Shown here: piece after piece, positions 54,758 through 64,000 of the stretch
Numbering within the stretch: position 1 is the first letter of the stretch
Layout: each line of letters starts with the position of its first letter
Origin: Aminobacter sp. AP02
GTDB taxonomy: Bacteria; Pseudomonadota; Alphaproteobacteria; Rhizobiales; Rhizobiaceae
Direction of reading: 5' to 3'
Length of the DNA stretch: 64,000 nt
Assembly: GCF_003148805.1 (NCBI RefSeq)
Contig: NZ_QGGX01000006.1
Span: 1-64,000, forward strand
Notes under the pieces: model-generated
The model's input: the letters and a program-made list of their open reading frames with translations, nothing else
What the model was told of the DNA's origin: nothing
The model's database searches: none
Made by a program: the position numbers and the translations under genes

Positions 54758-55756
54758 ATGGGCAACATCAACCTCAAGAAAGTGTCGAAATCCTTCGGCG
54801 CGACAACCATCATCCCCAATATCGACCTGGAGATCGAAGACGGCGAGTTCGTCGTCTTCGTGGGACCATCGGGTTGCGGCAAGTCGACCTTGCTCAGGCT
54901 GATCGCCGGTCTGGAGGACACAACCTCCGGCACCATCGACATCGACGGCCGCGACGTCACCGGCGAGGCCCCAGCCAAGCGCCGGCTGGCGATGGTGTTC
55001 CAGTCCTATGCCCTCTACCCGCATATGAGCGTCTACAAGAACATCGCCTTTCCGCTGAAGATGGCCGGCGACGATCCAGCCGTCATCGACAAGAAGGTCA
55101 AGGATGCTGCTCGCGTTCTGAACCTGACAAACTATCTCGAACGCCGGCCGGGCCAGCTCTCGGGGGGCCAGCGCCAGCGCGTCGCCATTGGCCGCGCAAT
55201 CGTGCGCCAGCCCTCGGCATTCCTGTTCGACGAACCACTGTCGAACCTCGACGCGGCCCTGCGCGGCACGATGCGCCTGGAGATCAGCGAACTGCACCAT
55301 CAGCTAAAGACGACGATGATCTACGTCACCCACGACCAGGTCGAAGCGATGACCATGGCCGACAAGATCGTGGTGCTGAATGCCGGCAACATCGAGCAGG
55401 TCGGCTCGCCGATGGACCTCTACAAGACGCCGAAAAACCTGTTTGTCGCTGGCTTCATCGGCTCGCCCAAGATGAATCTGATCAATGGCGCGGCCGCGGC
55501 AAAGCACGGCGCGACGACCATCGGTGTCCGGCCCGAACATCTCGCAATCTCGACCACGTCGGGTGAATGGAAAGCGATGGTGGGCGTCGCCGAGCACCTT
55601 GGCTCCGACACTTTCCTGCATGTGCACGCCGACGACGTCGGTTCGCTGACCGTGCGCGCCGACGGCGAGATCGGCGTGCGTCACGGCGAAACGATCTTCC
55701 TTACCCCGAGCGCCACCAAGATCCACCGCTTCGGCACTGACGGGAGGGCCATGTGA
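54758..55756 (+). CDS. smoK: Polyol ABC transporter ATPase
   Basis: A 332-residue MalK-like ATPase. Walker [10 protein letters not shown], signature LSGGQRQR, Walker [12 protein letters not shown], switch VTHDQ, then a C-terminal OB-type regulatory domain (~235-332). A ribosome site GGGAGGAAA precedes it. The end overlaps the next start (GTGA, 55753-55756). Confidence 0.94.
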
Positions 55757-56529
55757 GCGACAGGCTTAAGGGCAAGTCGGCGCTGATAACAGGTGCTGCG
55801 CGCGGGATCGGCCGGGCCTTCGCCGAGGCATATGTCGGCGAAGGCGCGGTGGTCGCGATCGGCGACATCAATCTTGAGGCCGCCGAAAAGACGGCTGCCG
55901 AGATCGGCCCGTCGGCCTATGCGGTCAAGCTCGACGTCACCGACCAGGCCTCGATCGACGCGGCGGTGAAGGCGGTTGAAGCAAAAGCGGGCGGGATCGA
56001 TATCCTGGTCAACAACGCCGCACTGTTCGACCTCGCGCCCATCGTCGAGATTTCGAGATCGAGCTTCGACAAGCTGTTTGCCGTCAATGTAGCAGGCACG
56101 CTGTTTACCCTGCAGGCTGTCGCCCGTGCGATGATCGCGCGTGGGCGGGGCGGCAAGATCGTCAACATGGCAAGCCAGGCCGGCCGGCGCGGCGAAGCGC
56201 TGGTGGCCGTATATTGCGCCACCAAGGCCGCCGTCATCAGCCTGACCCAGTCGGCAGGGTTGGACCTGATCAAGCACGGCATCAACGTCAATGCCATTGC
56301 GCCTGGCGTCGTCGATGGCGAGCATTGGGATCACGTCGACGCGCTGTTTGCCAAATATGAAGACCGGCCCAAAGGCGAAAAGAAACGCCTTGTTGGGGAA
56401 GGTGTACCCTTTGGCCGCATGGGCACGGCACAGGACCTTGTCGGCATGGCGATTTTCCTCGCCGGACCGGAGAGCCAATACATCGTCGCCCAGACCTACA
56501 ACGTCGATGGCGGCAACTGGATGAGTTGA
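55753..56529 (+). CDS. smoS: Sorbitol (L-iditol 2-) dehydrogenase, SDR family
   Basis: A 258-residue SDR that oxidises sorbitol to fructose (and galactitol to tagatose). TGAARGIG binds NAD, NNAALFD follows, and the catalytic Tyr-x3-Lys is in YCATKAA. It starts at GTG 55753, overlapping the smoK stop by four bases, so it is translationally coupled to the importer. The C-terminal [10 protein letters not shown] is characteristic of SmoS. Confidence 0.92.
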
Positions 56530-56625
56530 ACAAAGCGCTCCTTTTCCCCTTCAACCTTCGCCCGTGAAGCAGGCGAAGGCATCGGAGACGTGTGCGCTGA
56601 ACCGCAACCAAGAAAGCGTCGAACC

Positions 56626-58104
56626 ATGCCCGTGAAACTCTCCCGAGCGAATCTCGGCCAGCTTCCCGCCAACGTCGCGCGTCCGACATACGACCGCTCG
56701 TTGCTCACCGCAGGCATCGTGCATTTCGGCGTCGGCAATTTCCACCGTTCGCATCAGGCAGTCTATCTCGACGCGCTGTTCAACATGGGCGTCGGTCATG
56801 ACTGGGCGATCGTTGGCGCTGGCGTTTTCGACGGCGAAAAGGTTGGCCGCGCAAAACTGGCTGAGCAGGACTGGTTGACCACCGTGGTGGAACAAGACAG
56901 CGGCCATATGAGCGCCCTCGTCACCTCGGTCATGATCGATTTCCTGACACCCGGCGATGCCGCAGCCATCGTCGAACAACTGGCCGACCCGGCCATCCGC
57001 ATCGTTTCGCTGACGATCACCGAGGGTGGTTATTTCATCGACCCGGCGTCCGGAGTGTTCAACCCGGCCCACCCCGATATTGTCGCGGACGCTGAAAACA
57101 TCACGGCACCCAAGACCGTGTTTGGCATCATCCTGGCCGGACTCATGCGGCGGCGCGAAGACGGCGTGGTGCCCTTCACCGTGATGTCCTGCGACAACAT
57201 CCCCGGCAACGGCCACGTCACATCCGACGCGATGGTCGGGCTTGCCGGACTGGTCGACGAAACGCTGGCGGACTGGGTCAGCAAGCACGTCGCCTTTCCC
57301 AACAGCATGGTCGATCGCATCACGCCTGCCACCACAGATCGCGAACGCACGATCCTGAGCAGTGATTTTGGCGTCGAGGACAACTGGCCTGTGTTCTGCG
57401 AGCCGTTCAAGCAATGGGTGATGGAGGACCGTTTCACCGATGGGCGGCCGGCGCTGGAAAAGGTCGGCGTGCAGTTCGTGCATGACGTCGCGCCCTTCGA
57501 ATTGATGAAGATCCGCATCCTCAATGGCGGCCATGCGACCATCGCCTATCCCTCCGGCCTGATGGACATTCATTTCGTCCACGAGGCAATGGAAAATCCG
57601 CTCGTGCGCGCCTTCCTGGCCAAGCTCGAGCGCGAGGAGATCATGCCCACCGTGCCACCGGTGCCGGGCGTTGTTCTGGAAGAGTATTGCCAACTCATCG
57701 AGCGGCGCTTTTCCAACCCGAAGATTGGCGACACGGTTCGCCGCCTGTGCCTCGACGGATCCAACAGGCAGCCGAAGTTCATCATTCCGACGATCGCCGA
57801 CCGCCTGAAGACGGGCAACGGCATAGCGGGTCTAGCGCTCGAATCCGCGCTCTGGTGCCGCTATTGCTTCGGCACCACGGATTCAGGCGCCGTGATCGAA
57901 CCAAACGACCCCAATTGGGATCGGCTGCTTGCTACCGCGACGGCTGCCAAGGGTTCGCCGCAAACCTGGCTTGCGATGGAAGACATCTATGGCGAGGTCG
58001 GCAAATCACCCGCCTTCGCCGAAGCCTTCGCCCATAGCCTGGATGCGCTTTGGAAGCTGGGCACGAAAGAGACCCTGACGCGTTACCTCGGCGACGACCT
58101 CTGA
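56626..58104 (+). CDS. mtlK: Mannitol 2-dehydrogenase
   Basis: A 492-residue long-chain polyol dehydrogenase that oxidises mannitol to fructose. The NAD domain begins IVHFGVGNFHRSHQAVYLD; the catalytic Lys-Asn-His lie in KIRILNGGHATIAY; the C-terminal helical domain completes the fold. The ATG at 56626 gives the family N-terminus (MPVKLSRANL); an in-frame upstream ATG at 56590 lacks support. It follows smoS by 96 bases. Confidence 0.93.
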   Translation: MPVKLSRANLGQLPANVARPTYDRSLLTAGIVHFGVGNFHRSHQAVYLDALFNMGVGHDWAIVGAGVFDGEKVGRAKLAEQDWLTTVVEQDSGHMSALVTSVMIDFLTPGDAAAIVEQLADPAIRIVSLTITEGGYFIDPASGVFNPAHPDIVADAENITAPKTVFGIILAGLMRRREDGVVPFTVMSCDNIPGNGHVTSDAMVGLAGLVDETLADWVSKHVAFPNSMVDRITPATTDRERTILSSDFGVEDNWPVFCEPFKQWVMEDRFTDGRPALEKVGVQFVHDVAPFELMKIRILNGGHATIAYPSGLMDIHFVHEAMENPLVRAFLAKLEREEIMPTVPPVPGVVLEEYCQLIERRFSNPKIGDTVRRLCLDGSNRQPKFIIPTIADRLKTGNGIAGLALESALWCRYCFGTTDSGAVIEPNDPNWDRLLATATAAKGSPQTWLAMEDIYGEVGKSPAFAEAFAHSLDALWKLGTKETLTRYLGDDL

Positions 58105-58264
58105 GCCAAGTCAGAGCTGCCACTGCCCGCTGGAATTGCTTTTGGCGCACATATAGACTGCGCGTCATGGTGTTGTTTCGCGCATTTTTACATCATGTGA
58201 GTTTGCGGCGATTTCCGTCCGGCAGCATAGGCATGGCCGGGATTTCCACGGCGATGTCATCCTG

Positions 58265-59836
58265 ATGGCCGCCTATCTTTGCGCCGTGGACGTAGGCACC
58301 GGCAGCACACGCGCAGGCATTTTCAACCATACCGGAAAACTTCTCGGCCGCGCCGAACGTCCCATCGCCATGAACCGCTCGACTTCGGGCCAGTGCGAGC
58401 ACGATTCCGAAGACATCTGGTCGGCCGTGTGTGAGGCGGTCCGTGAAGCCCGCAGTGCCGCCAATGTCGATGCGGGCGACATCGCCGGCATCAGTTTCGA
58501 CGCGACATGCTCGACCGTGTTCAGGGGCAAGCTTGGCGATCAGGTCAGCGTGTCCGACTGCGGCAACGATCGCTGGGACACTATCGTCTGGCTCGACCAT
58601 CGCGCGCTGGCGGAGGCCGACGAGTGCACCGCCACCCGCCATGAAGTGCTCGGCTATGTCGGCGGCGTGATGTCGCCGGAGATGGCGACGCCCAAGCTGA
58701 TGTGGGTCAAGCGTCACCTGCCCCAAAGCTGGGCCAGGACCGGTCGGCTGTTCGACCTCGCGGATTTCCTCACACACAAAGCCTGCGGGTCGTTCGCCCG
58801 CTCGCAATGCACACTCACCGCCAAATGGACCTACCTCGCCCATGAACGCGAAGCGTGGCGCCACGATTTCTTCGCCGCGGTTGGTCTCGGCGACATCTTC
58901 GAGCATGCCGGTTTGCCCGAGCGGGCAAGCTCGGTTGGCGCAGATCTCGGGCCGCTCACGCCAACTGCCGCCGAAGCGCTAGGCCTGACCACAACTTGCC
59001 GCGTCGGAGCCGGACTGATTGACGCATTTGCCGGTGCCATCGGCGTCATTGGCGGACGAACCGATATTGACCGTCACCTCGCGCTTATTGCCGGCACATC
59101 GAGCTGCATCATGGCGATGTCGGCAGAGCCTCGCGCCTTTGCCGGCGTCTGGGGCCCCTATTTCGGCGCAGCCCTGCCTGGCCTGTGGCTGAGCGAAGGC
59201 GGCCAGTCGGCAACCGGCGCCCTGCTCGACCACATCATCCGCTGGCACGGCGCCGGTGGCGAGCCCGATATTGCCATGCATCAGCGCATCACCGAGCGCA
59301 TCATGCAGTTGCGAACGCTGGAAGGGCTGGACCTTGCCGGGCGCCTGCACGTGCTGCCCGACTTCCACGGCAACCGCTCGCCGCTGGCCGACCCGCATGC
59401 GCTTGGCGTGATCAGCGGGTTGACGCTCGATTCGTCCTTCGACAGCCTGTGCCGGCTCTACTGGCGCACGGCCGTCGCCATCGCGCTCGGCCTTCGCCAT
59501 GTGCTCGATGCGCTCAACGCCAATGGCCACGGCATCGACACGTTGCACGTTACCGGCGGCCATACACGCAACCCGTTGCTGATGGAACTTTACGCCGACG
59601 CCACCGGCTGCACCGTCGTCGAACCGATTGGCGGCGACGCCGTTCTGCTGGGAACCGCCATGGCGGCGGCCGCAGCGGCGGGACTCTATCCAAGCCTCAC
59701 CGAAGCCTGTGCCGCCATGCGCCAGGAAGGACGCGCGCGCAGGCCAAATGCATCGGCACAGGAACGCTTCGATCGCGACTACCGCGTGTTCCTCGAAATG
59801 CAGCGCCAGCGCAAGGCCATCGACGCGCTTGCCTGA
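58265..59836 (+). CDS. FGGY-family pentulose kinase (D-ribulokinase-like)
   Basis: A 523-residue sugar kinase. AVDVGTGSTRAGIF (phosphate 1), GISFDATCSTVF, TIVWLDHRALAEAD, SPEMATPKLMWVK and the C-terminal HVTGGHTRNPLLMELYADATG fit the FGGY pentulose kinase subgroup that includes D-ribulokinases. Its presence after smoS-mtlK suggests the operon also handles ribitol or arabitol through ribulose or xylulose. The 160-base gap before it is larger than others in the operon, so a separate promoter is possible. Confidence 0.88.
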   Translation: MAAYLCAVDVGTGSTRAGIFNHTGKLLGRAERPIAMNRSTSGQCEHDSEDIWSAVCEAVREARSAANVDAGDIAGISFDATCSTVFRGKLGDQVSVSDCGNDRWDTIVWLDHRALAEADECTATRHEVLGYVGGVMSPEMATPKLMWVKRHLPQSWARTGRLFDLADFLTHKACGSFARSQCTLTAKWTYLAHEREAWRHDFFAAVGLGDIFEHAGLPERASSVGADLGPLTPTAAEALGLTTTCRVGAGLIDAFAGAIGVIGGRTDIDRHLALIAGTSSCIMAMSAEPRAFAGVWGPYFGAALPGLWLSEGGQSATGALLDHIIRWHGAGGEPDIAMHQRITERIMQLRTLEGLDLAGRLHVLPDFHGNRSPLADPHALGVISGLTLDSSFDSLCRLYWRTAVAIALGLRHVLDALNANGHGIDTLHVTGGHTRNPLLMELYADATGCTVVEPIGGDAVLLGTAMAAAAAAGLYPSLTEACAAMRQEGRARRPNASAQERFDRDYRVFLEMQRQRKAIDALA

Positions 59837-59923: not shown

Positions 59924-61003
59924 TTAAGCCGCCGCAAATCCGTCGCGGCACAAGCCGTTGAGCTGCTCCAGCGACATCGCGTCGATGTCGAGCGCTGTCA
60001 GCAGGTCGTTCTCGGCATTGAAGTCGCGGCCATACATCGCCGAGAAGATGCGTACGCCGGCTTCGTGCAGCTCGGCGGGATAACCCGCAAGGCGGCCGAT
60101 CTTGGCGGTCATGACGAGGCCGAAAGGCACGTCCTCGGTAACATAGCGGCTGTCGGCAGTGGTCGGGCCGGTGCCGCCGTTTCCGGCTTCGTGCATCTCC
60201 TGGTTCATCTGCGAGATCGAGCTCATAGGCACGTGGAACGACAGGTGGAAGTGCTGGAAGATGTTGCGCACTTCAAGACCGAGCTTGGTGGCGATTGCGA
60301 TGCGCTCCTCGTCGAGCTGTTCCAGCAGACGGCCGACATTCGGCGTGACGTTCTGGCCCTGGCTCCAGTTCTCGCCGCGCTCCATGCGCGTCATGTTGCC
60401 GAGCGCGATGCCCATGTGGTTCTGGGGGTTGAGGTTGGACAGCGCGATCGCCATCAGGCTGCCCCTGTCGACGAAGCGGTCGCCGAACAACGCCTGGCAG
60501 ACTGCGAAGCCGTCGGCGCTGCGCGAAGCCGGCACCGTGGCCAGATCGACCTTCTTGCGTACCGTGTTGACGTTGACCAGCGTCGGGCTGAGCTGGCGGC
60601 CGGACACGACTGTCGTGCCCCAGCCGACGATCGGCGCAACGACGCCGCGCTTGGCCAGCAGGCGCGACAAGTAGAGCGCGCCGAAGGACGCGTGCGAGCT
60701 GATGATGACGGTCTGGTCGGCCCTGACATAGGGCGCGATGGCGTCCAGCACGGCCTTGTGGCCATAGGCCGGCAGCGCGATCACTATTGCTTCCGCACCG
60801 GCGACGAGTTCCTCCGTGCTTGCAGCGGCTGCCGGATGGAAGGTTCCTTCGACGGCACCCTGGGCAACCAGCGCTTCGCCGTTTGCCAGCGCCTTGGTGC
60901 GCTCGCCAGATGGCGACCACAGTGTCGCGTGATGTCCCTGCTGTTCGAGAAACACCGCCGTTCCAAAGGCGATCGAACCTGCGCCAACAATACCTACCTG
61001 CAT
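59924..61003 (-). CDS. NAD/NADP octopine/nopaline dehydrogenase family protein
   Basis: A 359-residue enzyme. The N-terminal Rossmann motif is GIVGAGSIAFGTAVFLEQQG; the C-terminal helical octopine-dehydrogenase domain contains FHLSFHVPMSSISQM, in the region of the catalytic His. Family members reductively couple, or oxidatively split, an amino acid and a keto acid. There is no Ti-plasmid context. It is the last gene of a minus-strand operon with two CMD proteins, a flavin monooxygenase and a regulator, suggesting catabolism of an N-substituted amino acid. Specific substrate unknown. Confidence 0.85.
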   Translation of the reverse strand: MQVGIVGAGSIAFGTAVFLEQQGHHATLWSPSGERTKALANGEALVAQGAVEGTFHPAAAASTEELVAGAEAIVIALPAYGHKAVLDAIAPYVRADQTVIISSHASFGALYLSRLLAKRGVVAPIVGWGTTVVSGRQLSPTLVNVNTVRKKVDLATVPASRSADGFAVCQALFGDRFVDRGSLMAIALSNLNPQNHMGIALGNMTRMERGENWSQGQNVTPNVGRLLEQLDEERIAIATKLGLEVRNIFQHFHLSFHVPMSSISQMNQEMHEAGNGGTGPTTADSRYVTEDVPFGLVMTAKIGRLAGYPAELHEAGVRIFSAMYGRDFNAENDLLTALDIDAMSLEQLNGLCRDGFAAA

Positions 61004-61072
61004 TCCAACATTCCCTTTTGGATCAAATTCGTTTTGGGCCCGGCAGCCGCCCTGCAGGCGTGACCGGGTCGT

Positions 61073-61687
61073 TCATTTCGGACGTATCAACGCCCGCGTC
61101 GTACTGCTGCCGACTTCGCCTGATGCGACAACCAGAAATGCCCGTGCCCCGACCGGGCCGACACTGGTCAGCGAATGCGGCACATCGCCGGCGTATCGGG
61201 CCGTCTCACCGGCGCGCACGATCATCTCGTTGCCCGCACTGCGGACGACGATCTCGCCTTCGGTGCAATGCAGATGCTCGATAGTGCCGGCTCCGTGCGG
61301 ATCGCTGATCAGCTTGCCCTTGAGCTCGAAGTTCAGCAGGTACCATTCGATCAGCGGCACCATGCCGGCCGGCGACAGTATCTGTAGCGTGCAACTTCCA
61401 TCGGCGCTGCGGATCGTCGGCGTCAGGTTCTCCGGCTGCAGATCGATCCTGTCGCCGCGCTCTTCGGAAGCACCGCTGATCAGGCTGTTGAGGTCGATGC
61501 CGAGCGCCCGGGTGAGATGCCAAAGCGTGCCGTAGGTCGGATTGGCGTTGCCGCGCTCGATCTCAGATAGCATCGAACGCGACACGCCCGATCTCGTCGC
61601 AAGGTCGGCGAGCGTCAGGTTCTGCTGCTTGCGGTACGCTTGCAGGCGTGGCCCGATTTCCGGCGGATTGACCGAATGCATGTTCAT
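61073..61687 (-). CDS. XRE-family regulator with cupin domain
   Basis: A 204-residue regulator. HTH at ~13-67 (RLQAYRKQQNLTLADLATRSGVSRSMLSEIERGNANP) and a C-terminal cupin at ~100-190 with IEHLHCTEGEIVV and AGDVPHSL. Such proteins sense small metabolites in the cupin and usually control adjacent catabolic genes. AGGAGC precedes ATG 61687; a second ATG two codons later is possible. It sits inside the operon, between the CMD genes and the opine-dehydrogenase gene. Confidence 0.9.
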   Translation of the reverse strand: MNMHSVNPPEIGPRLQAYRKQQNLTLADLATRSGVSRSMLSEIERGNANPTYGTLWHLTRALGIDLNSLISGASEERGDRIDLQPENLTPTIRSADGSCTLQILSPAGMVPLIEWYLLNFELKGKLISDPHGAGTIEHLHCTEGEIVVRSAGNEMIVRAGETARYAGDVPHSLTSVGPVGARAFLVVASGEVGSSTTRALIRPK

Positions 61688-61716
61688 TCCGATGCTCCTT
61701 CCGACGCCTCGGGCAA

Positions 61717-62292
61717 TTATTCGGCGAGCGGCTCTCCAAGGGTGTGCATGAGCCGGTTGGCCCAGCCAAACAGCGACGATGACAGAATGAGGTCGAGGAT
61801 CTCGTCCTTGCCGAGACCGGCATCGACCAGCGCCTGCATGTCCGAGGCATCGGCATCGGAGGGGCATTTCGATAGCTTGACCGAAAAGTCGAGGATCGCC
61901 TTCAGCCGCGGCGAAATCTCGGCCTCTGTACCGTCGGCGAAGATCGCCGCAATGACGCTCTCGTCCTTGGTCAACTGGTTGTAGCGGCTGGCGTGCACGG
62001 CGGCGCAATAGATGCAGCGGTTGACGATCGAGGCGCCGACAGCGCCGATCTCACGCTCGGCGCGCGACAGGCCACCCTTGTTGTACATCACCCCGTTGAA
62101 CAGCGGCGAGCGGTGCGTCAGCGTCTCGACGTCATGCGCCAGCACCAGCACGTAGTCCGACACCTTGGTGTTGGACGGCGTGACCTTGAGCGCTTCTAGC
62201 TGCGCGGGACTGGCCTCGGCGAGGTCGAGCGGCCTGACGTAAGGCTTCCACTCGGGGATTGCCGTGGTGAATTCGTGGACGACCTTGCTCAT
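61717..62292 (-). CDS. Alkylhydroperoxidase/carboxymuconolactone decarboxylase-like protein (Avi_7169-type)
   Basis: A 191-residue AhpD-like protein. The CxxC redox motif is in NRCIYCAAVHASRYN, the hallmark of peroxidase-related CMD proteins, and the helix ILDFSVKLSKCPSDADASDM follows. Its length and pattern resemble the alkylhydroperoxidase-domain family that recurs next to a second CMD protein. It overlaps the upstream gene by 4 bases (62289-62292). The reaction is unknown. Confidence 0.85.
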   Translation of the reverse strand: MSKVVHEFTTAIPEWKPYVRPLDLAEASPAQLEALKVTPSNTKVSDYVLVLAHDVETLTHRSPLFNGVMYNKGGLSRAEREIGAVGASIVNRCIYCAAVHASRYNQLTKDESVIAAIFADGTEAEISPRLKAILDFSVKLSKCPSDADASDMQALVDAGLGKDEILDLILSSSLFGWANRLMHTLGEPLAE

Positions 62293-62789
62293 GCCAACCC
62301 CCGCATCAGCCGCAGCCCGGCGGCGACCCTGATCTGATAGCTGCAGAAGGCGACCAGCTCCGACAACCGCACGATGTCGGCATCAGTAAGGCCCGCCTCC
62401 TGCAGCAGTTCGATGTCGCGGCGTGTCGCATCCTTGGGCGCATGCGCCACCAGGTCGACGTGCCGGATCAGCGCCTTGAAGCGCGCATTGTTGCCGCCAT
62501 CGAACCAGATGTCGGCAATGCGCGCGGTGTCGCCTGACGCACCGGCCTTTTCAAGCAAGGCTTCGAAATGTTCCTCGAAGTCCTTGTCGTCATTGATCTT
62601 GGCGATGCGGCACGCAAGGGCCGCCCGCTCGGCATGCGACAGCCCGCCCGGCTCGACCGGCGTCAACGCACCGTCATGCGTCTGCTGCGTCAACGCCATG
62701 ATGTCAGCGCGACCGGCCACCACCGCCGCCAACTCGCTGCCAGGCTCGACACCGACGATTCCGGCAATCACATCCTTGTTCTCGGCCAT
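62289..62789 (-). CDS. CMD-domain protein without CxxC (Avi_7170-type)
   Basis: A 166-residue all-helical protein (SHAERAALACRIAKINDD, FKALIRHVDLVAHAPKDATRRDIELLQEAGLTDADIVRLSELVAFCSYQIRVAAGLR) that is the usual partner of the preceding AhpD-like family. It has the CMD fold but lacks the CxxC, so it may be a structural or substrate-binding subunit. Translationally coupled to the peroxidase-like gene. AGGAGGA before ATG 62789. Confidence 0.82.
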   Translation of the reverse strand: MAENKDVIAGIVGVEPGSELAAVVAGRADIMALTQQTHDGALTPVEPGGLSHAERAALACRIAKINDDKDFEEHFEALLEKAGASGDTARIADIWFDGGNNARFKALIRHVDLVAHAPKDATRRDIELLQEAGLTDADIVRLSELVAFCSYQIRVAAGLRLMRGLA

Positions 62790-62798
62790 GCCGTCCTC

Positions 62799-64000
62799 CT
62801 ATGCCTGCTTGCGGACGGCTGTCCGCTGGTCGTCCGGCAAGGGCGATGCCGTCCACTCGTCGCCGCGCAGTTCGGGCGTGTCGTAGTCGAGCAGCCGCTG
62901 CCAGTACTGGCCGAAATTCTCGGTGTAGAGTTTTGCGGCGATCTCGCGCGCCAGCCACGCCGCCCCTTCGCTGATGCCGGGGATGTCGCCGCTCATCTTG
63001 CCTAGGCTGGCGGCAGCGCCCGAGTTGAAGCTGTGGATGTTGGCGAGCCACGGCGCCTGCCCCGGCTCACGCTCAAGGAAGGTGAAGTCGTTGGCCAGGT
63101 AGGGGTAGTTGCCGAGATCGCCATTCTCCTCGCCTTCCGGCGGGGTGAAGCGATCCTGCCACAAGAGGATCTTGTCGGCGTAGCCGTCGAGTTCCTTTCG
63201 CGCGAGCGGATCGACGCTAAAGCCGGTACCAAGGATCAGGAAGTCGCAGCGAACGGCCTTGCCTTGCGAAGTCGAGATGACGATCTCGTCGCCTTCGATC
63301 TCGGTCTTTTCGACGGCCGCATCAAAATGGAAGTAGGCGTTCGGATGCCTGCTTACGCGCATCGTCGAACCACGTGGCGCCGGCGTCTGGGTGCGTAGCG
63401 AGTAGTTCATGATCTGCCAGCGCCTGGCATCGCTCAACTGCGGAAAGGCAGCGGTGAAGCCAAACGAGCCGATGCCCATCAGCTTGTTGATGCAAGGCAT
63501 CTCCTTGCGCCGGATCAGATGACGCACTTCAACGGCCCCTGCCTCGAGCGCCTCGGCGGCGTTGTCCACGGCGGAAGCTCCCACGCCGACGACCACGACG
63601 CGCTTGCCACGCAAGGCGGCGAAGTCGATTTCGTCGGACGAATGCGCCCAGTATTTGCGCGGCAACCCGTCGACGAAGCCGGGAATGCTCGGATGGCCCA
63701 TGCCGTCGCGGCCGGTCGCCATCACCACCTTGCGGGCCAGCACCGATTTTTCGCGCGCGCCCTCGCCGGCAAGGTTCAGGCGCATCAGTTCGCCCTCGGG
63801 TACAACGGACTTGACCTCAACGCCATTTTCTACCGGCAATTCAAGCACCTTGCGGTACCAGCGCAGGTATTCCATCCACATCGGGCGCGGGATCTTGTCG
63901 AGTTCGGCCCAGCTGTCGTTGCCGAACTGGGCGACGTACCAGGCACGGAAGGTCAGAGACGCCATGCCATAGGCCGGACCAAGCAGTTGCTTGGGCGAGC
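62799..64000 (-). CDS. Flavin-containing monooxygenase / NAD(P)-binding protein (partial)
   Basis: At least 400 residues; the 5' end lies beyond the right edge because the frame stays open through 64000 and the N-terminal FAD GxGxxG is not yet reached. Visible parts are the NADPH fold VVVVGVGASAVDNAAEAL, the preceding MATGRDGMGHPSIPGF, and LILGTGFSVDPL; the C-terminal part has FTFLEREPGQAPWLANIHSFN. It fits class B flavin monooxygenases (FMO/BVMO/N-hydroxylase). Its stop lies 9 bases before the CMD gene start, so it is first in the visible operon. Product could be an N-oxide, hydroxylamine or ester. Confidence 0.85.
   Translation of the reverse strand, partial: SPKQLLGPAYGMASLTFRAWYVAQFGNDSWAELDKIPRPMWMEYLRWYRKVLELPVENGVEVKSVVPEGELMRLNLAGEGAREKSVLARKVVMATGRDGMGHPSIPGFVDGLPRKYWAHSSDEIDFAALRGKRVVVVGVGASAVDNAAEALEAGAVEVRHLIRRKEMPCINKLMGIGSFGFTAAFPQLSDARRWQIMNYSLRTQTPAPRGSTMRVSRHPNAYFHFDAAVEKTEIEGDEIVISTSQGKAVRCDFLILGTGFSVDPLARKELDGYADKILLWQDRFTPPEGEENGDLGNYPYLANDFTFLEREPGQAPWLANIHSFNSGAAASLGKMSGDIPGISEGAAWLAREIAAKLYTENFGQYWQRLLDYDTPELRGDEWTASPLPDDQRTAVRKQA

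Follow-up and report, generated by a model that had tools for sequence, protein, structure and literature searches.

Opine catabolism on Ti plasmids (octopine, nopaline, mannopine) couples an importer to an opine-directed enzyme, which in the Oox/Nox type is a DAO-type opine oxidase. Here we analysed an operon of Aminobacter sp. AP02 that likewise combines an importer with a putative opine-directed enzyme. It lies at the end of the window, the whole stretch of DNA studied (bases 1-64000 of contig C6 of a 5.6-Mb genome), and continues past it on the same contig (Table 1). In contrast to the Oox/Nox type, it encodes a predicted NAD(P)-type opine dehydrogenase (ODH), a class B flavoprotein monooxygenase (FMO) and two CMD proteins (CMD1 and CMD2). 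No DAO-type flavin oxidase was found in the operon, where only FMO matches DAO, with 19.2 bits against a cut-off of 27.9. The binding protein (SBP) of the importer has a mannopine binding protein as a weak relative (E 3.8e-5). Our preferred, though tentative, reading is that the operon takes up a small, anionic, N-substituted amino acid of the opine type and breaks it down oxidatively.

A counterpart on pSymB of Sinorhizobium meliloti 1021 shares 60% identity with the window proteins for FMO, 42% for CMD1, 57% for CMD2 and 57% for ODH. We assigned the tags SMb20278-SMb20285 to it because the eight genes listed in PMC3596328 match the content of an unannotated sequence record. The accessible part of that article describes a GlnD-dependent group assigned to polyamine uptake, which also includes an oxidoreductase, a carboxymuconolactone decarboxylase and one hypothetical protein, and that of PMC3484140 counts SMb20284 among presumed polyamine transporters; neither part names a tested substrate for the cluster. 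Both clusters include a Pot-type ABC importer, but in S. meliloti a LysR regulator replaces the XRE-cupin regulator and ODH is divergent, behind the LysR gene. The original prediction knew of no characterized pathway with this gene set, and none was found in the literature searched, which yielded no paper on the combination and did not cover most subscription journals; a word search of PMC9007349 gave nothing, and the accessible parts of PMC9870897 and PMC10041152 were not relevant. The gene families are known, and their combination and regulon are undescribed as far as we searched.

The assignment of ODH came from a score of 120.7 bits with Octopine_DH (cut-off 30), which places it in the opine dehydrogenase family, and from a full-length alignment with N-(1-D-carboxylethyl)-L-norvaline dehydrogenase (CENDH, PDB 1bg6; E 2.1e-35). 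Residues H196, R286, Y287, E290 and D291 are near-invariant among 75 aligned rows. Three of them, H196, D291 and R286, align with the catalytic His, Asp and Arg of CENDH and are the presumed catalytic residues of ODH. However, the two proteins are only about a quarter identical.

FMO exceeded the cut-offs of both Pyr_redox_3 and Pyr_redox_2, and its GGGMCG and GVGASA motifs indicate two dinucleotide-binding domains. It also matches the Lys_Orn_oxgnase domain (46.4 bits, cut-off 21.3). Foldseek was run with a structural model of the orthologue from Aminobacter carboxidus (pLDDT 80), and the first 32 rows were all N-hydroxylating monooxygenases (PvdA, SidA, putrescine N-hydroxylase, DesB, DfoA and others), followed by thioredoxin reductases and FMOs. 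Known N-hydroxylating monooxygenases such as PvdA, SidA, FbsI and DesB make siderophores; FMO, by contrast, adjoins importer genes, and it is 13-18% identical to them, with moderate template-modelling (TM) scores. One Foldseek row was DiatB (22% identity), a literature trace of which came up empty. On the Ti plasmid of A. fabrum GV3101 (L192:6412-15669), an FMO paralogue of 36% identity stands beside two luciferase-like monooxygenases and an ABC importer.

Of the CMD pair, CMD2 scored 184.5 bits with the peroxidase-related enzyme model TIGR01926 (cut-off 81.8), and its C93, C96 and H100 are near-invariant among 93 rows. The CMD1 sequence lacks a CxxC motif and scored below the cut-offs of Pfam CMD (20.3 versus 23 bits) and of TIGR04029, its best NCBIfam model. 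The PDB entries closest to a confident model of a CMD1 orthologue (pLDDT 93) were AhpD/peroxidase-related proteins (best E 2.5e-4). The Avi_7170/Avi_7169 pair (TIGR04029 and TIGR04030) likewise consists of two adjacent CMD-fold genes; however, the Aminobacter pair stayed under both cut-offs (93.2 versus 100.75 and 150.4 versus 233.15 bits), and its partner is FMO, whereas that of the Avi pair is a luciferase-like monooxygenase. The families first proposed for FMO, the CMD pair, the XRE-cupin regulator and ODH therefore held up, through Pfam and NCBIfam matches, the CMD1 model and the conserved catalytic residues of ODH. In A. fabrum BG5 (L198:13454-15141), a gene annotated as 2-hydroxychromene-2-carboxylate isomerase lies between FMO and CMD1, and a MATE exporter follows CMD2.

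A scan of species genomes with an FMO alignment returned at least 545 confirmed relatives, and neighbours were counted at the best 80 loci, in preference to counts with duplicates, several of L034-L046 being the same genomes as loci in L087-L166. CMD1 and CMD2 were each present in 79 of the 80, ODH in 62, and SBP and the ATPase each in 59; the sole locus without CMD genes, L124, stops just past FMO. Other partners were Lrp (38 loci), MFS (35), a SufS-like pyridoxal phosphate (PLP) enzyme of at least 45% identity (35), XRE-cupin (18), TRAP (16), kbl (13) and tdh (12). The hosts are Hyphomicrobiales, Rhodobacterales, Halomonas relatives and others, so that the operon, whose CMD pair had been noted to recur in other rhizobia, is not confined to them. 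Over 62 loci, FMO identities between pairs correlate with those of ODH (r 0.82). An FMO tree built from 82 rows requires at least 6 changes for ODH, 3 for TRAP, 8 for kbl, 10 for the SufS-like gene and 12 for MFS, indicating that partner genes are gained and lost while the core stays; FMO open reading frames (ORFs) of at least 600 amino acids and duplicates were left out of this tree, and the long branches L169 and L170 meet in it, making their placement unsure. In the 12 loci of the Halomonas type, TRAP genes are always present and ODH is always absent.

Among 297 genomes of the order, ODH (at least 60% identity) was found in 10 and FMO (at least 58%) in 12, and FMO, ODH and CMD1 occurred together in 9, the window genome included. 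This recurrence, and that throughout the best 80 loci, indicates that the gene set is more than chance. The single operon originally proposed would have been refuted had its genes not co-occurred in other genomes; their co-occurrence is borne out in both samples. The closest relatives of the operon among the matches listed are from Aminobacter (91-92% identity for FMO, about 94% for ODH). The 12 further genomes from the same family were all negative for CMD1, and none of 102 stretches of a viral collection that matched a pattern encoded an ODH relative. One stretch of Neorhizobium NCHU2750 (L199:1-15115) combines ODH, two hydantoinase-like HyuAB pairs, a peptide-type binding protein and FMO-CMD1-CMD2.

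The regulator appears to connect the operon to threonine breakdown. It matches HTH_3 (54.8 bits) and, below the cut-off of 27.2, Cupin_2 (22.0 bits), and it is 45% identical to an XRE-cupin protein encoded beside kbl-tdh on contig C20 of the same genome. Two kbl-tdh pairs were found in this genome, on contigs C3 and C20 (L207:7009-9336 and L208:7088-9329), and one of them adjoins this paralogue. The operon promoter carries a palindrome of the form TTCC-N8-GGAA, which lies 22-24 bases past TTGAC in 15 of 16 operon promoters (at exactly 22 in 12). When a matrix of 15 sites from promoters of other species was run over 76 kb of own-genome loci, the top sites after the window promoter were those in the gap between kbl and the XRE gene. 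As an XRE-cupin paralogue and the same kind of palindrome occur at kbl-tdh, both operons probably respond to related signals.

We then scored sites between CMD2 and ODH with a second matrix of 12 sites made symmetric. By their gap 49 of the 80 loci qualified (45 adjacent, 4 with an XRE gene between), the remaining 31 being outside the scoring. A score of at least 13 before ODH was obtained in 6 of the 45 adjacent loci, the next best being 4.8; five of the six are from Rhodobacterales and one is from an unplaced alphaproteobacterium. None of the 4 loci with XRE between CMD2 and ODH had the palindrome. It was present before ODH in 3 of 4 loci with a nearby XRE-cupin gene versus 3 of 41 without (Fisher p 0.005, uncorrected for kinship).

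An exact pattern derived from the two own-genome sites gave 23 sites in 21 of the 297 genomes. Three sites lie directly before kbl (own genome, G202 and G114); at two of these loci an XRE-cupin gene stands beside kbl, and the third contig starts at the site. Of the remaining sites, one is that of the window promoter, and around 19 no member of a set of ten query genes was found within about 1.5 kb. One of these 19, a second copy in G202 (L233:5022), is situated between an L-serine ammonia-lyase gene (621.9 bits, cut-off 345.1) and a mannonate dehydratase gene, 28 bases ahead of the ammonia-lyase start. A pattern of promoter plus palindrome hit none of the 297 genomes, which is uninformative because its spacing was one base too long.

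Gene neighbourhoods point the same way. All 13 kbl loci of the best 80 carry ODH; kbl and tdh follow ODH in several Hyphomicrobiales, and XRE-cupin, kbl and tdh stand beside the cluster in some Rhodobacterales. The order in A. tumefaciens 1D1609 is ABC-ODH-kbl, with FMO and CMD genes absent from the 23-kb stretch examined. By contrast, kbl, tdh, the SufS-like gene, Lrp, Cds1 and XRE were found at none of 15 control loci (FMO paralogues, other ODH or CMD genes), which span 14-19 kb, the best 80 mostly 21 kb. The operon is thus tied to the threonine dehydrogenase pathway, Tdh-Kbl, by neighbourhood in 12-13 of the 80 loci and by a palindrome in common, but in the window genome the Tdh-Kbl genes lie outside it, on contigs C3 and C20.

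Importers of several types, an oxygenase with two AhpD-fold proteins, a secondary-amine enzyme and consumers of threonine, serine or cysteine are most simply accounted for by catabolism of N-substituted beta-hydroxy or beta-thio amino acids. Cumulatively, we propose the following course: 1) the Pot-type ABC system would import the substrate; 2) FMO, acting like an N-hydroxylase, would oxygenate it with NAD(P)H and O2, and the CMD1-CMD2 pair, with its one CxxC/His centre, would perform or complete the next redox step; 3) ODH, working in the oxidative direction of its family chemistry, would convert the secondary amine to an imine, which would decompose into an amino acid and a keto acid; 4) a released beta-hydroxy amino acid (threonine, perhaps serine) would pass to Tdh-Kbl and, in other variants, cysteine to a SufS-like desulfurase or a Cds1-like desulfhydrase, as the neighbouring genes suggest; and 5) the XRE-cupin protein would act at the palindrome at the -10 box, probably as a repressor. 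On our best reading the substrate is opine-like and of the threonine, serine or cysteine type; we infer it, the reaction order and the repression. The gene content, its conservation and the shared palindrome are read from the sequence. It is possible, though doubtful, that these and other bacteria, among them Hyphomicrobiales, Rhodobacterales and Halomonas relatives, share an undescribed pathway. In it, the N-hydroxylase-like FMO, the AhpD-fold pair and a reverse-acting ODH would dismantle N-substituted amino acids of the beta-hydroxy and beta-thio types, such as opines of threonine, serine or cysteine or the corresponding oxazolidines and thiazolidines, and paralogous XRE-cupin proteins would control the pathway jointly with the breakdown of threonine and serine. 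The original prediction was that an N-substituted amino acid or related amine is oxidized, with peroxide or radical handling; the substrate class is retained as a proposal, and the context favours threonine/serine and cysteine metabolism over peroxide handling as such.

Several observations weigh against our preferred reading. ODH is absent from 18 of the 80 loci, including all of the Halomonas type (in 3 of the 18 the contig is truncated), indicating that it is not always needed. Only some loci have kbl-tdh or a desulfurase next to them, the window operon has neither, and the 80 loci are phylogenetically non-independent. The TM scores of FMO with N-hydroxylases, 0.52-0.57 by query length over the first 32 rows, are moderate. 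The palindrome is missing before ODH in 39 of the 45 scored loci, and 18 of the 23 exact sites have neither the serine gene nor any of the ten query genes nearby. The bare palindrome is unspecific, the reversed control occurring in 46 of the 297 genomes as compared to 21 for the pattern itself. Since the pattern was also derived from own-genome sites, a bare match is no evidence, whereas the company of kbl is. Finally, no compound known to us would obviously give rise to threonine as well as cysteine.

Organosulfur salvage is the main rival account, which we also regard as a doubtful possibility: FMO and the CMD pair would release cysteine (or a sulfenate) from an S- or N-substituted cysteine, with CMD2 reducing the sulfenate, ODH stripping an N-carboxyalkyl group, and the threonine link being secondary. 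A cysteine-salvage pathway of Bacillus uses monooxygenases to free cysteine. Partner genes suggest that C-S cleavage may occur in other clusters. The SufS-like enzyme of the 35 loci conserves the PLP lysine and the family Arg and Cys; in clusters of R. tumorigenes and R. esperanzae it is encoded together with a sulfur dioxygenase resembling Blh (545.7 and 537.8 bits, cut-off 625), and a gene annotated as a TauE/SafE exporter lies beside the FMO and CMD genes; two other lineages have a Cds1-like L-cysteine desulfhydrase (541.6 and 570.8 bits, cut-off 600) close to CMD1-CMD2; and a bisC-type S/N-oxide reductase is found near CMD genes. Moreover, a SufS-like gene (at least 50% identity; search cut-off 1e-60) occurred in 6 of 14 genomes with FMO (at least 51%) versus 23 of 283 without (p 9e-4, 297 genomes). 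However, five of these six genomes belong to two genera (g44 and g111), the named partners stay under curated cut-offs (99.6 and 142.2 versus 475.1 bits for SufS), and the TauE/SafE-annotated gene matched no NCBIfam model at 1e-10. The window operon has no desulfurating enzyme beside it, the SufS-like/Lrp pair of this genome being on contig C18, and the shared palindrome directs to threonine and serine genes instead. In two genomes of one family a molybdopterin oxidoreductase (bisC-type in L184) stands beside a peptide-type ABC system and CMD genes (L184:2819-5071 and L040:6149-8395).

We consider it unlikely that the operon detoxifies an amino acid antimetabolite instead of serving nutrition. 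The MFS protein of the 35 loci belongs to the H+ antiporter subfamily and a MATE-type gene follows tdh or CMD2 in some loci, yet high-affinity importers are usual (SBP in 59 of 80 loci, TRAP in 16) and match nutrition better.

The importer itself bears on a further alternative, namely that polyamines are taken up and oxidized, in line with the label given to the S. meliloti counterpart in PMC3596328 and PMC3484140. It is a Pot-type ABC system by sequence; its ATPase passes the polyamine subfamily model TIGR01187 (382.8 bits, cut-off 355.6), the nearest PDB relatives of SBP bind putrescine or spermidine, and the fold relatives of FMO include putrescine and cadaverine N-hydroxylases. SBP, however, falls far below the cut-offs of PotD (72.4 versus 582 bits) and PotF (76.4 versus 636 bits). 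The acids of PotF that hold putrescine correspond in SBP to K48, P253 and Y278; among 70 rows position 48 is variable (Asp in 41%), and P253 and Y278 are near-invariant, as are the basic residues R69, R99 and R226. These substitutions and conserved arginines favour an anionic ligand over a polyamine. Opine dehydrogenases, furthermore, require a carboxylated amine. Polyamine oxidation is therefore improbable, and an anionic opine-type substrate remains our preferred reading. On plasmid pUSP1 of Aminobacter sp. MSH1 (L167:3418-5502), the SBP gene is annotated short (612 bases) and adjoins an IS3 transposase, so that this copy of the operon may be without its importer.

The ORF coordinates agree with the five tightly packed minus-strand genes first described, with gaps of 9, -4, 29 and 69 bases. 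Following the sequence beyond position 64000, as had been suggested, revealed a larger operon: FMO starts at 64292 (first ATG) or 64313 (GTG), and a four-gene ABC importer, a promoter and the palindrome lie upstream. The five window genes are thus, by sequence, the end of a predicted nine-gene operon in the order SBP, two permeases, ATPase, FMO, CMD1, CMD2, XRE-cupin and ODH. A promoter scan found no promoter-like site inside the window part. Downstream, a convergent plus-strand polyol operon (55753-59836) encodes an SDR protein, a mannitol-type dehydrogenase and an FGGY kinase, as judged from ORFs. The inverted repeat between the two operons is a possible shared transcription end; it was not among the calls of a strict terminator scan.

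Table 1. Features of the operon and its borders (window numbering; positions above 64000 are on the same contig).
Feature	Position	Strand	Remarks
ODH, opine (octopine/nopaline) dehydrogenase family, 359 aa	59924-61003	-	Octopine_DH match
XRE-cupin transcription regulator, 204 aa	61073-61687	-	HTH_3 and weak cupin match
CMD2, AhpD-like peroxidase-related enzyme with CxxC and His, 191 aa	61717-62292	-	TIGR01926
CMD1, AhpD-fold partner without CxxC, 166 aa	62289-62789	-	TIGR04029 below cut-off; model and fold search
FMO, class B flavoprotein monooxygenase, 3' part inside window	62799-64000	-	Gene truncated by window end
ATPase of ABC importer	64338-65423	-	Upstream of FMO
Two permeases of ABC importer	about 65423-66217 and 66217-67206	-	
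SBP, binding protein of ABC importer	67359-68468	-	
Predicted promoter TTGACA/AAAAAT	68705-68678	-	Upstream of SBP
Palindrome TTCCAGTTTAGTGGAA	68678-68663	-	Begins at -10 box
Inverted repeat, 15 bases, 93% complementary, 4-base loop	59881-59914		Between convergent ends of operon and polyol operon

Directly upstream of the operon are phnF and carbon-phosphorus (C-P) lyase genes (68781-74190; L003:12782-18191). A phosphonate-linked function, suggested by phnF and phnGHIJKL adjoining the operon, is very improbable, as phnG, H, I and J occurred in only 4 of 99 loci examined, those of the window genome and three Aminobacter.

The module is common in soil, plant-associated and marine bacteria, which suggests that its substrate is a widespread natural compound. 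The shared palindrome and the threonine, serine and cysteine partners reduce the candidate substrates to a few testable classes. The module also calls into question the polyamine label of the S. meliloti counterpart.

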